In this document: in pieces, positions 632 to 13,000 of the stretch | Numbering within the stretch: position 1 is the first letter of the stretch | Layout of the letters: each line of letters opens with the position of its first letter | IMG/VR virus record: IMGVR_UViG_3300006916_000536 | Location: 1 to 20,145 of that record | Origin: a virus | Reading direction: 5' to 3' (one strand) | DNA: 20,145 nucleotides | Notes under the pieces: generated by a model | What the model saw: the letters and a program-made list of their open reading frames with translations, nothing else | Told to the model about the DNA's origin: nothing | The model's database searches: none | Translations under genes and position numbers: made by a program

Positions 632-1747
632 TTATTTGGGATCAACTAGGATTGCCCACCCCGTTCCAGGGCCGTCGCATTCCCAGCGGCGCAGCCAATT
701 GCTGCGGCTGTAATGCACGAACTTGCCGCTTTCTTGGGTGTTTGATTCATAGCCGCCCTTCAACATGTTGGCTTTACCGTTTGGGTCGTGGAAAATAAGG
801 GCCTCTGGGGTGTAGCCCACACAGCAGCTCCAGTGGCCGCCGCCTTTGGGATCACCGATTGGTCCGTTATGTAGCCAGCCGACTGCAACGGGGCGGCCTG
901 CATCGATCTCTTTTTCTAAAATCTCAGCCGTTCCATTGGTAATAAACCGGGGCTTTAAGCCGCACTCTCCAAGGGCATCGAGTTGCGCTCCAACGGATGT
1001 TGTATCGCCGAACTCGCTGCGGATAAGGTTATAGGCATCGTCGCTGCTGACTTCGCCGTAAAACTTGGCGATCATTGCGCAGCTACTTGAGAAGCATTCT
1101 CGATAGCCGGTGCCGGATGCGTTGTCCAGCTGGTATTCGTATGGAACGTCCAGAACTTTTTCGCTCGATCCGGTGGTCTCGTTTTCGTCCATTAGGCGGA
1201 TTAGCTTCTCGGCATACTCTGGATCGGTTGCGTATCCTTCACGCACCAGGGCACGGGCGCAGTCTTCGCGGTTGGGTGCGTTGTTGACACCCCAGTAGCT
1301 TTTATAGTTTTTGTACCAGCGTTGGACGAGGTACTCGACGCAAGCGGTGATGCTTGGGAAGTCGATGAAGCTATCCGTAATCTCGATCCAGGTGCCGTCG
1401 ATGTATTCGGAGGTGGAAGTCTCCGTTCCATCGCCCTTAAGGCCGAAGAAGTTGTTTTTGCCTGAAGTGTGGCGGCCCCAACCGGATTCCAGTGCCCATT
1501 GAGCAGCTACGCATTCCGGGTACTTTGCACCGGCTTGTTTTGCTGCTGCTTTGATGCCGTCCCAGCTGTTTTCACCCTTTGGGTCAACGGCGGATTTCCA
1601 TGTTGCGTACCAGGGCTGGTCGCGGTCGAAAGCGGTTGGGTTGGATTTGAGGATGAGCTGCTCGAGTTCAATCAGCGCAGCGTTTTGGTGCGGTAACGCT
1701 TGGTAATAGCGGAACAGATCACTCAGGCGGATCGGTTTTTGCGTCAT
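632..1747 (-). CDS. two-domain endolysin: GH73-type glucosaminidase plus C39-like peptidase
   Basis: This 371-residue peptidoglycan hydrolase has three parts. Residues 1-60 form a short helical N-terminus. Residues about 62-185 match the glucosaminidase (GH73) family: AAQWALESGWG with the catalytic Glu at 87, then NNFFGLKG. Residues about 198-371 look like a C39-type papain-fold peptidase: C218 in ECFSSSCAMIAKFYG matches the CGPxSxxM motif, H305 lies in GGHWSCCVGY and D321 in FHDPNG. It would cut both the glycan strand and peptide bonds of the cell wall at the end of infection. There is no signal peptide, so it would need the holin-like proteins encoded just upstream. Its ATG lies 29 bases inside the preceding frame, suggesting translational coupling. 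GGAG lies close (2 bases) to the ATG. Confidence 0.88.
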   Translation of the reverse strand: MTQKPIRLSDLFRYYQALPHQNAALIELEQLILKSNPTAFDRDQPWYATWKSAVDPKGENSWDGIKAAAKQAGAKYPECVAAQWALESGWGRHTSGKNNFFGLKGDGTETSTSEYIDGTWIEITDSFIDFPSITACVEYLVQRWYKNYKSYWGVNNAPNREDCARALVREGYATDPEYAEKLIRLMDENETTGSSEKVLDVPYEYQLDNASGTGYRECFSSSCAMIAKFYGEVSSDDAYNLIRSEFGDTTSVGAQLDALGECGLKPRFITNGTAEILEKEIDAGRPVAVGWLHNGPIGDPKGGGHWSCCVGYTPEALIFHDPNGKANMLKGGYESNTQESGKFVHYSRSNWLRRWECDGPGTGWAILVDPK

Positions 1748-1967
1748 CGCTCCAGGGAGAATGGATGCTCATTTTCCACCCGTCCTCTTTGTAGACGGGT
1801 GTGGGTGGTTCGTCGGGGGCTGTTGCACGCCAAATTTCAATGGCGGTGTCCAGACGGTGCTTCAAGGTTGCGTGGAATTTACGCTTTGCAATCGCGCGTT
1901 CCACGGCAGACCATGCGGAGCGGGTGCTAAATCTTACGATCCAGCGGCCATCCGGCGGGGTCAGTTC
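1719..1967 (-). CDS. 82-residue soluble domain, reached by a predicted -1 frameshift from the upstream membrane protein
   Basis: After the slippery site the -1 frame reads ELTPPDGRWIVRFS and continues to WRATAPDEPPTPVYKEDGW and HSPWSDDAKTDPPE. The protein is soluble, rich in Arg, Trp and Pro, with no membrane segment. In this frame there is no ATG, GTG or TTG between the upstream in-frame stop and the protein-like N-terminal part. The first usable start is a GTG at 1902-1904, which has no ribosome site and would cut away about 21 residues that look genuine. The simplest reading is a fusion of 130 residues starting at 2110. Alternatives are a CTG start at 1962-1964, or one missing or extra A in the A6 run. 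The stop overlaps the endolysin start by 29 bases. Function unknown. Confidence 0.65.
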   Translation of the reverse strand, partial: ELTPPDGRWIVRFSTRSAWSAVERAIAKRKFHATLKHRLDTAIEIWRATAPDEPPTPVYKEDGWKMSIHSPWSDDAKTDPPE

Positions 1968-2110
1968 TTTTTTGGCTTGATGGAGCGGAGTGCGGTGAAG
2001 ATCAGTTGGATTACGGAGTTATCTTTGAGTTTGCTCATTCCGATGAGTTCAGATGCTGCTGCCAGAACAACCCAGAATGCTGGGTGGGCAATGATTTCTT
2101 CGAGGTGCAT
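1961..2110 (-). CDS. small membrane protein, 49 aa (holin-like candidate)
   Basis: The protein begins MHLEEIIAHPAFWVVLAAAS and ends RSIKPKKN. Residues about 10-25 form one hydrophobic segment, followed by a short polar turn, a second partly hydrophobic helix (VIQLIFTALR) and a basic tail. The ATG at 2108-2110 has AAGGG 9 bases upstream. It lies in a run of three small membrane proteins directly before the endolysin, which is where holins and their partners are found. Small size, one or two membrane helices and a basic tail suit a holin or antiholin, but I know no motif that proves it. The last three codons carry the slippery site that would replace the final Asn with an 82-residue extension. 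Confidence 0.75.
   Translation of the reverse strand: MHLEEIIAHPAFWVVLAAASELIGMSKLKDNSVIQLIFTALRSIKPKKN
1967..1973 (-). promoter_or_regulatory. predicted -1 ribosomal frameshift site A AAA AAG
   Basis: On the minus strand the heptamer AAAAAAG is phased A_AAA_AAG relative to the 49-residue gene (codons CCA AAA AAG AAC TGA). This is the same heptamer that drives -1 frameshifting in bacterial dnaX. The zero-frame stop follows after one codon, and the -1 frame then stays open for 82 codons. Downstream sequence is GC-rich (around 1945-1960), but I see only short candidate stems and no clear Shine-Dalgarno-like stimulator upstream. Confidence 0.55.
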
Positions 2111-2135: not shown

Positions 2136-2381
2136 CTAGCTATCGCGGTTCTCGAGAATTGTCAGGCGGTGATCGTGGCTGCTCAGTTTGCTATAAATCT
2201 CCTTGCGGTCGGATTTCATGTCTTGGTGTAGTTCCTCTAGCTTTCCGGCGATGCTTTCCACCGCCATTGTTAGGCGGATTACGGCGTCTCGCGATTCGCT
2301 GGTACGGCGGCTGAAGCCAGATGCGGACGCACCAGCAACACCGATGCAGGCTCCTATAGCTGCGGCGGCAATTTCAATCAC
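2136..2381 (-). CDS. small membrane-anchored protein, 81 aa (lysis-region)
   Basis: Residues 1-20 (MIEIAAAAIGACIGVAGASA) are a hydrophobic, small-residue membrane segment. The rest is a charged helix with heptad-like spacing (VESIAGKLEELHQDMK, then KLSSHDHRLTILENR), probably a coiled coil lying outside the membrane. This N-terminal anchor plus coiled-coil stalk is common among small phage lysis-region proteins of holin or spanin-like type. The start codon is GTG at 2379-2381. It is flanked by membrane proteins at 2406-2684 and 1961-2110, with gaps of 24 and 25 bases. No lipobox or second membrane segment is seen, so I cannot call it a holin with confidence. Confidence 0.75.
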   Translation of the reverse strand: MIEIAAAAIGACIGVAGASASGFSRRTSESRDAVIRLTMAVESIAGKLEELHQDMKSDRKEIYSKLSSHDHRLTILENRDS

Positions 2382-2405: not shown

Positions 2406-2684
2406 TTATCGGCACTGCTGCCGTTGGCGTAACCGCTCAACCTCAGCTTGCAATACATGGATAGCGCTATCTTGCTTTACGTCATCAGGTAATGCGCCCA
2501 TCTCGCCGCGAGGCCATTTGATGCGAAACTCAGTGTTCTGATCGACGTTCATGTGCATTTTGGTGATTTCATGCTCCAAGTGATAAATCTTGGAGTGAAT
2601 CCCGGATGCCCACCAAACAGCAATACCAGCCTGAACAGCAAGCGCAAGGATGCCTCCTATTAACTCAATGTTGATTCTGTCCAT
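2406..2684 (-). CDS. small membrane-anchored coiled-coil protein, 92 aa (lysis-region)
   Basis: One membrane segment (about residues 8-27, LIGGILALAVQAGIAVWWAS) is followed by a helix rich in His, Lys and Glu (KIYHLEHEITKMHMNVDQN), a short Pro-containing linker and a final coiled-coil helix (VLQAEVERLRQRQQ). The ATG at 2682-2684 is preceded by AAGG. Architecture resembles the next gene at 2136-2381, although the sequences are not obviously related; the two could form a hetero-complex. Placed in the lysis region by position only. Alternatives are a holin, a holin inhibitor or a spanin-like protein. Confidence 0.75.
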   Translation of the reverse strand: MDRINIELIGGILALAVQAGIAVWWASGIHSKIYHLEHEITKMHMNVDQNTEFRIKWPRGEMGALPDDVKQDSAIHVLQAEVERLRQRQQCR

Positions 2685-12465: not shown

Positions 12466-12663
12466 CTAGCGACCGCGGCGTTTGGCTTTCTCGTACGCTT
12501 TGTTCTCTTGGTCTGCTTTATACGAGTAGTAGGCGTGCCAGCCAAGCAGTTCTTCCTGGGTCATTCGGGACTGAAGCTCGCCAAGCGTCATCTTCAGTTC
12601 GGTTGCCAGAAAGAACTGGAATTGCAGAGCGTGATTTTTTTCGATCTCACTCTGCAGTGCTTT
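12466..12663 (-). CDS. tail assembly chaperone, second (gpT-like) part, frameshifted
   Basis: This frame opens just after a TGA at 12664-12666 and ends at TAG 12466-12468. The product contains LQFQFFLATELKMTLGELQS, then MTQEELLGWHAYYSYKADQE and a basic tail. The xMTxEELxxWxAYY pattern is the hallmark of the T part of G/T-type tail chaperones. It is in the +1 (equivalently -2) frame relative to the gene at 12647-13000, which it overlaps by 17 bases, and its conserved region begins before the first ATG. Production as a G-T fusion by frameshifting is therefore likely. Separate translation from the ATG at about 12603, giving 41 residues, is the alternative. The tape measure starts 27 bases downstream. 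Confidence 0.75.
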   Translation of the reverse strand, partial: KALQSEIEKNHALQFQFFLATELKMTLGELQSRMTQEELLGWHAYYSYKADQENKAYEKAKRRGR

Positions 12664-12664
12664 T
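12647..12664 (-). promoter_or_regulatory. frameshift window of the tail chaperone (+1 or -2)
   Basis: The change of frame must happen between the T-frame stop (12664-12666) and the G-frame stop (12647-12649). Within it the minus strand reads ATG AAA AGC ACT GCA GAG TGA. The run AAAA at 12661-12664 lets a Lys tRNA on AAA slip +1 onto another AAA. I see no codon pair that would allow a good -2 slip. A run of seven A at 12635-12641 is beyond the stop and cannot serve. Confidence 0.45.
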
Positions 12665-13000
12665 CATGTCGGCATCAACATCCGAGTCCTCATTCAAAAT
12701 AGCCAGCATCAAAGCCTGCAGATCCCTGTCCTTGACTTCGTTCTTCAAAACGTCGATCTCACCAGGTCTGAACAGCTTTTGGCCGCTGTCGTCGATGGCC
12801 TTGTTGATCAGTAGCTGGAGCGCAAAAGCGGTGGCATCCTCCGATTTGGCTTGGCGTTGAGCACGCTCACGCTCTGCCATCGTCAGGGGAGTAAACCAAA
12901 GCTCAAAAGTCGATCCATCCGATAACTCGACTTCCTTTTTGATCGGCTCCATGTTGGCAGCCTTGCGGAGGCGATCAATTGCGCGAAGTGCGACAGGCAT
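12647..13000 (-). CDS. tail assembly chaperone, first (gpG-like) part
   Basis: The 117-residue protein begins MPVALRAIDRLRKAANMEP and contains a small N-terminal beta domain (KKEVELSDGSTFELWFTPLT) and a helical body (MAERERAQRQAKSEDATAFA, ALMLAILNEDSD). It would bind the tape measure and tail tube protein during tail assembly. Position between tube protein and tape measure is diagnostic. The frame opens at ATG 13000. A second ATG at 12950-12952 has AAGG 8 bases upstream and gives a start (MEPIKKEV) closer to what I expect for the family, so translation may begin there. The stop lies inside a shifted frame that encodes the T part. Confidence 0.8.
   Translation of the reverse strand: MPVALRAIDRLRKAANMEPIKKEVELSDGSTFELWFTPLTMAERERAQRQAKSEDATAFALQLLINKAIDDSGQKLFRPGEIDVLKNEVKDRDLQALMLAILNEDSDVDADMKSTAE

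Follow-up and report, generated by a model that had tools for sequence, protein, structure and literature searches.

A small membrane protein gene of cyanophages likely to be extended by −1 ribosomal frameshifting

We describe a lysis-region gene, present in widespread cyanophages that include siphoviruses and podoviruses, in which −1 programmed ribosomal frameshifting very likely occurs at the heptamer A_AAA_AAG. The evidence is comparative and comes from sequences; no product has been measured. The frameshift is supported because relatives retain the heptamer in the same phase, the −1 frame is coding, and the heptamer and the domain that it gives access to are linked. The explanation that best accounts for all the data, and which we consider likely, is that one gene encodes two membrane proteins by means of −1 frameshifting. 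Most ribosomes would be expected to terminate after a 49-residue, holin-like protein with a single transmembrane (TM) segment. Some would slip back by one base on the two lysine codons of A_AAA_AAG, and these would add an 82-residue domain with a predicted long helix and β hairpin, giving a form of 130 residues.

The sequence analysed is a virus record of 20,145 bases (IMGVR_UViG_3300006916_000536), the whole of which we call the window. The 0-frame ORF of 49 codons lies on the minus strand at 1961..2110, and its translation is MHLEEIIAHPAFWVVLAAASELIGMSKLKDNSVIQLIFTALRSIKPKKN, followed by the stop codon. This small single-TM, holin-like protein would be the short product. It has one hydrophobic segment at approximately residues 7–25, assigned by hydropathy and not by a dedicated TM predictor (the peak spans residues 1–27), together with a basic end. 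The 3′ end of the ORF reads CCA AAA AAG AAC TGA, with CCA at 1975–1973, AAA at 1972–1970, AAG at 1969–1967, AAC at 1966–1964 and TGA at 1963–1961, all on the minus strand. The slippery heptamer A_AAA_AAG (1967..1973, minus strand) is therefore in the X_XXY_YYZ phase for −1 slippage, one codon 5′ of the 0-frame stop (TGA, 1961..1963, minus strand). The −1-frame ORF (1719..1967, minus strand) has 82 codons plus a stop, and would encode the C-terminal domain of the fusion. It begins with E (1967–1965), continues LTPPDGRW and ends at a stop at 1721–1719. The earliest possible start in this frame is GTG 1904, and the fusion has 48 + 82 = 130 residues. The coordinates, counts, heptamer phase and lengths that the original prediction had given all held. 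On shuffling the sequence, 45 or more open codons after the slip site have a probability of ~0.18, and the open −1 frame in one phage alone is therefore weak evidence.

Relatives were gathered by protein similarity from viral contigs, isolate phages and bacterial genome contigs, and possession of the heptamer was not a criterion. The viral collection holds more than 500 relatives, and only the best among them were fetched. The pooled relatives were made distinct around the stop, giving 188 sequences; these are related to each other and do not represent 188 independent events. An earlier set of 118 clustered at 85% identity into 58 groups. The isolate relatives are Synechococcus phages, for example KBS-S-2A, S-CBS1, S-CBS3, S-B28, WH11-B and S-EIVl.

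An in-phase slippery heptamer lies just 5′ of the 0-frame stop in 173 of the 188 distinct relatives. It is A_AAA_AAG in 168, G_GGA_AAG in three (S-EIVl and the contigs L358 and L404) and A_AAA_AAA in two. All but one of these 173 sequences (172) have an open −1 frame, of median length 81 codons; in the sole exception, L071, the slip is followed at once by a −1 stop, and the frame is open in its sister L074. Retention on this scale goes well beyond chance. The distance from heptamer to stop was tallied in 121 sequences, where it is one codon in 102, zero in 17 and two in 2. The heptamer and the domain are also both kept in three divergent contigs from bacterial metagenome-assembled genomes (L183, L184 and L186). 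These carry the labels Hyphomonadaceae, bacterium TMED88 and proteobacterium, and are likely cyanophage contigs that have been mis-binned.

These data bear on the simplest alternative, that an ordinary gene of 130 residues has been split by an indel in the A6 run, introduced in sequencing or assembly. The homopolymer does sit exactly where the frame changes. Yet the same frame change is present in the 173 heptamer-bearing relatives, which come from many assemblies and from isolate genomes, three relatives have GGGAAAG and no A6, and no relative has both parts in one frame. The A6 is thus not an isolated error, and the indel explanation, which the original prediction had allowed for, is all but excluded.

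The heptamer is conserved beyond what the protein requires. The codon preceding AAA-AAG encodes any of nine amino acids (A, P, G, S, Q, E, T, V or R), with A in third position in 120 of the 121 sequences. In the same set AAA is always followed by AAG, and the final G is nearly invariant. At the lysine two codons further upstream, AAA and AAG are both freely used. The count of 120 was taken from sequences already classed as carrying the heptamer, and the unbiased figure is the 173 of 188 given above. The constraint on the third base at the slip site exceeds that needed to specify the amino acids.

Moreover, heptamer and domain are found together and lost together. When loci were collected by searching with the domain first, 80 of 80 had an in-phase A_AAA_AAG with a TM ORF in front, and none of the 80 had an in-frame fusion of the TM ORF and the domain. 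The 15 relatives that lack the heptamer also lack the domain. An Oinezvirus-like clade keeps the Lys-Lys dipeptide, written AAG-AAA or AAG-AAG (AAG-AAR), and has no homologous −1 domain. L218 (IMGVR_UViG_3300010299_000518) has lost domain and heptamer together, and in P60, L185 and L370 an unrelated tail follows in frame.

Purifying selection on the −1 ORF is strong and extends to the codons upstream of any start codon. The median pairwise dN/dS of this ORF is 0.17–0.19 (about 0.18), compared with 1.2 and 2.0 for the other frames of the same region; the median for the 49-residue ORF is 0.22. Immediately after the slip, the stretch L-I-P-x-D-G-R-W is conserved as protein in 95 sequences while its codons vary synonymously. 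In most relatives the first ATG, GTG or TTG of the −1 frame is at least nine codons downstream of the slip, so that this conserved stretch can be reached only by frameshifting.

An alternative is that the downstream ORF is a separate gene with an internal start, and that the heptamer is incidental. In its favor, GenBank gives separate ORFs in S-CBS1 (gp23) and S-CBS3 (gp22), and the window itself has a possible start at GTG 1904. Against it, the peptide is conserved from the first post-slip codon, with synonymous variation there. The first possible start varies across relatives from 0 to 57 codons into the frame, and the heptamer persists although codon usage would be free to vary, and disappears along with the domain. 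We consider an internal start very unlikely. The original prediction had interpreted the gene as a −1 programmed frameshift with a −1 frame that looks like protein from its first codon, and both points are upheld by the comparison. It had also named observations that would tell for or against this reading: relatives do keep A AAA AAG in the same phase, none was found with the two parts in one uninterrupted frame, and there is no fixed ATG directly before the domain.

The added domain consists of the linker LTPPDGRW, a predicted long helix and a predicted β hairpin ending in an IHSPW motif, and the C-terminal motif (I/L)xxPW is conserved among relatives. An AlphaFold2 model of the domain is of intermediate confidence (mean pLDDT 73.8, pTM 0.37). 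A fold search of this model against viral predicted structures gave no match, with no E value below 0.5. The domain has no match in Pfam or NCBIfam, and a search of PHROG gave only one marginal and apparently chance match (E = 0.083). The frameshift gene defines a domain family that is absent from Pfam and NCBIfam.

The slip site closely resembles that of E. coli dnaX (tau/gamma), with the same heptamer, as the original prediction had pointed out, in the same phase. Strong slippage on A_AAA_AAG in E. coli has been linked to its sole tRNA-Lys (review, PMC5009743), which has the anticodon UUU. In a complete genome of a Cyanobium-group genus, taken as a stand-in for the putative host, the 46 tRNA matches include a single tRNA-Lys, whose anticodon is UUU, and CUU is absent. 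No tRNA gene lies in the window. Both lysine codons of the cyanophage heptamer would probably be read by the sole tRNA-Lys(UUU). The dnaX frameshift gives the shorter protein, and uses a Shine–Dalgarno (SD)-like element and a hairpin. By contrast, the cyanophage frameshift gives the longer protein, and we found no consistent stimulator. Folding of segments around the slip in 58 non-redundant relatives gave no conserved downstream stem-loop or pseudoknot. The mean folding z-score just past the slip is ~−1, but it is about the same throughout the −1 ORF and so is not site-specific. Hairpins after the slip are clade-specific only, and the fold of the window itself has z = −0.7 to −1.6. No SD-like stimulator was seen by eye upstream of the slip site.

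Slippage could in principle be made by RNA polymerase on the A run and not by the ribosome. Thermus dnaX relies on such transcriptional slippage (PMC5009743), and 168 of the 173 relatives have at least six A. Against this, the G_GGA_AAG of S-EIVl and the two other relatives has only three A, so that a long homopolymer is not shared by all members. G_GGA_AAG keeps the two-tRNA slippage rule X_XXY_YYZ and not the homopolymer, and ribosomes are therefore favored over RNA polymerase. The nearly invariant final G is also as expected of a ribosomal A_AAA_AAG site. A run of six A is short for polymerase slippage. Taken with these points, transcriptional slippage is a very unlikely source of the −1 frame.

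Conserved −1 frameshifts in double-stranded DNA phages are best known from the tail-assembly chaperones. The lambda pair gpG/gpGT resembles the cyanophage gene in having a conserved −1 frameshift that gives short and extended forms at a ratio. The slip site of lambda is G_GGA_AAG, the heptamer also used by the three cyanophage relatives. The cyanophage gene differs in encoding a membrane protein; it is another gene in another module and not a tail chaperone. To our knowledge there is no other conserved −1 frameshift of this kind in a lysis module. We found no earlier description of this frameshift in the open-licence literature that we searched, which included papers on frameshifting and on cyanosiphoviruses, nor any annotation of it in the reference genomes that we examined: the record of KBS-S-2A has no annotation for the domain, and in those of S-CBS1 and S-CBS3 it is given as a separate small ORF. 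As far as that literature goes, the mechanism is a known one but the gene family that uses it is new, and the case illustrates how recoded genes are concealed by annotation.

We turn now to function, where the conclusions are inferences. The minus-strand gene order in the window is tail genes, a 92-residue and an 81-residue TM and coiled-coil protein, the 49-residue ORF, the endolysin and an HNH endonuclease. The endolysin (632..1747, minus strand) comprises a glucosaminidase and a C39-like peptidase, and its first 29 nt are shared with the 3′ end of the −1 ORF. The 81-residue protein (2136..2381, minus strand; PHROG 26178, unknown function) adjoins the frameshift gene and is likely part of the lysis cassette; the 92-residue protein (2406..2684, minus strand), with weak PHROG matches of unknown function, is a possible member. 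In 121 of the 173 relatives the endolysin directly follows the frameshift gene, and because of this a role in lysis is inferred. On balance we think that a role in lysis or at the membrane is the better inference. The same 121 relatives satisfy the expectation that a holin be encoded next to the endolysin. There is, however, no match to a curated holin family in Pfam or NCBIfam, and PHROG 22542, to which the 49-residue protein belongs, is of unknown function.

The reading that we favor, by inference, is that the gene acts in lysis or at the membrane, its short product as effector and its longer one as regulator. The short form would be the holin of these phages. The cytosolic domain of the long form would adjust the short form, probably restraining or anchoring it, and so set the timing of lysis. 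That the long form is an antiholin-like regulator is a tentative inference, inhibition being untested, and we lean slightly against it. The original prediction had suggested a holin and an inhibitor, and this remains an inference, given the absence of a curated holin match and the ~50 relatives where no lysin was recognized directly downstream. There is a likeness to the lambda S105/S107 holin and antiholin, where one gene beside the endolysin yields a small membrane protein in two related forms. A second start makes those forms differ in their N termini, whereas the cyanophage forms would differ at the C terminus, with a domain added by frameshifting.

A different and less likely possibility is that the frameshift mainly delivers ribosomes to the endolysin start by translational coupling, the domain protein being secondary. 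Of the 121 lysin-linked relatives, 119 have their −1 stop 4–41 nt inside the endolysin gene, counted from its start, and ribosomes ending there would help to translate the endolysin. In L218, which has no domain, the endolysin ATG overlaps the 49-residue stop directly as ATGA. There is a precedent in MS2, where the lysis gene overlaps the coat gene and relies on translation of the latter for its expression (references in PMC5009743 and PMC10885494), although MS2 has neither a slippery heptamer nor a fusion product, and coupling in the cyanophage gene is only a possibility. Against coupling as the main function, the domain protein is itself under purifying selection, short overlaps are common in phages, and the gene and its frameshift persist where no lysin is recognized downstream. 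Since the next gene in ~50 relatives is not recognized as a lysin, a strict role in lysin coupling cannot be general. Coupling might be an extra function in siphoviruses alongside the effector and regulator that we favor; that it contributes is inferred, and we are inclined to doubt it. One contig (L226) has a −1 ORF that continues in frame into the endolysin (324 codons), and would encode a fusion of TM segment, domain and lysin. This is a single contig, and an assembly error is possible.

It is also possible, though we think it less likely, that the gene encodes a two-product membrane protein that acts outside lysis, with some other role in the membrane of the infected cyanobacterium. The relatives lacking a recognized downstream lysin support this, as does the lack of a holin family match. 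In three relatives that we inspected (L349, L359 and L362) there are a tyrosine recombinase-like integrase gene, an HNH endonuclease and small TM/coiled-coil genes nearby. Against it, most relatives sit directly before an endolysin, and in the podoviruses S-B28 and WH11-B the frameshift gene has the tail fibre on one side and the small terminase on the other. That is the position of the holin gene 17.5 in T7, another small membrane protein. The cyanopodovirus gene has no detected sequence relationship to gene 17.5, and differs in possessing the −1 domain. A BLAST comparison of the window's 81-residue neighbor with its S-B28 counterpart found no similarity, so a conserved partner gene has not been shown. 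The lysis or membrane role remains our preferred reading.

A bolder reading is possible, though we think it unlikely, namely a lysis switch controlled by recoding in phages of picocyanobacteria. If true, how often one slip occurs would determine how much holin is made relative to the domain-bearing regulator and also how many ribosomes reach the endolysin start, and slippage would govern the timing of lysis in these phages. The gene offers a concrete way, open to experiment, of learning how phages that infect the main photosynthesizers of the ocean might time lysis.

Elsewhere in the window, the region 12466–13000 (minus strand), which lies 5′ of the tape-measure gene, probably encodes a pair of tail-assembly chaperones. 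An ORF of 117 residues ends near 12647, and a second ORF is open from ~12664 to 12466 in the +1 (or −2) frame. It is likely that this is the site of a second, different frameshift.
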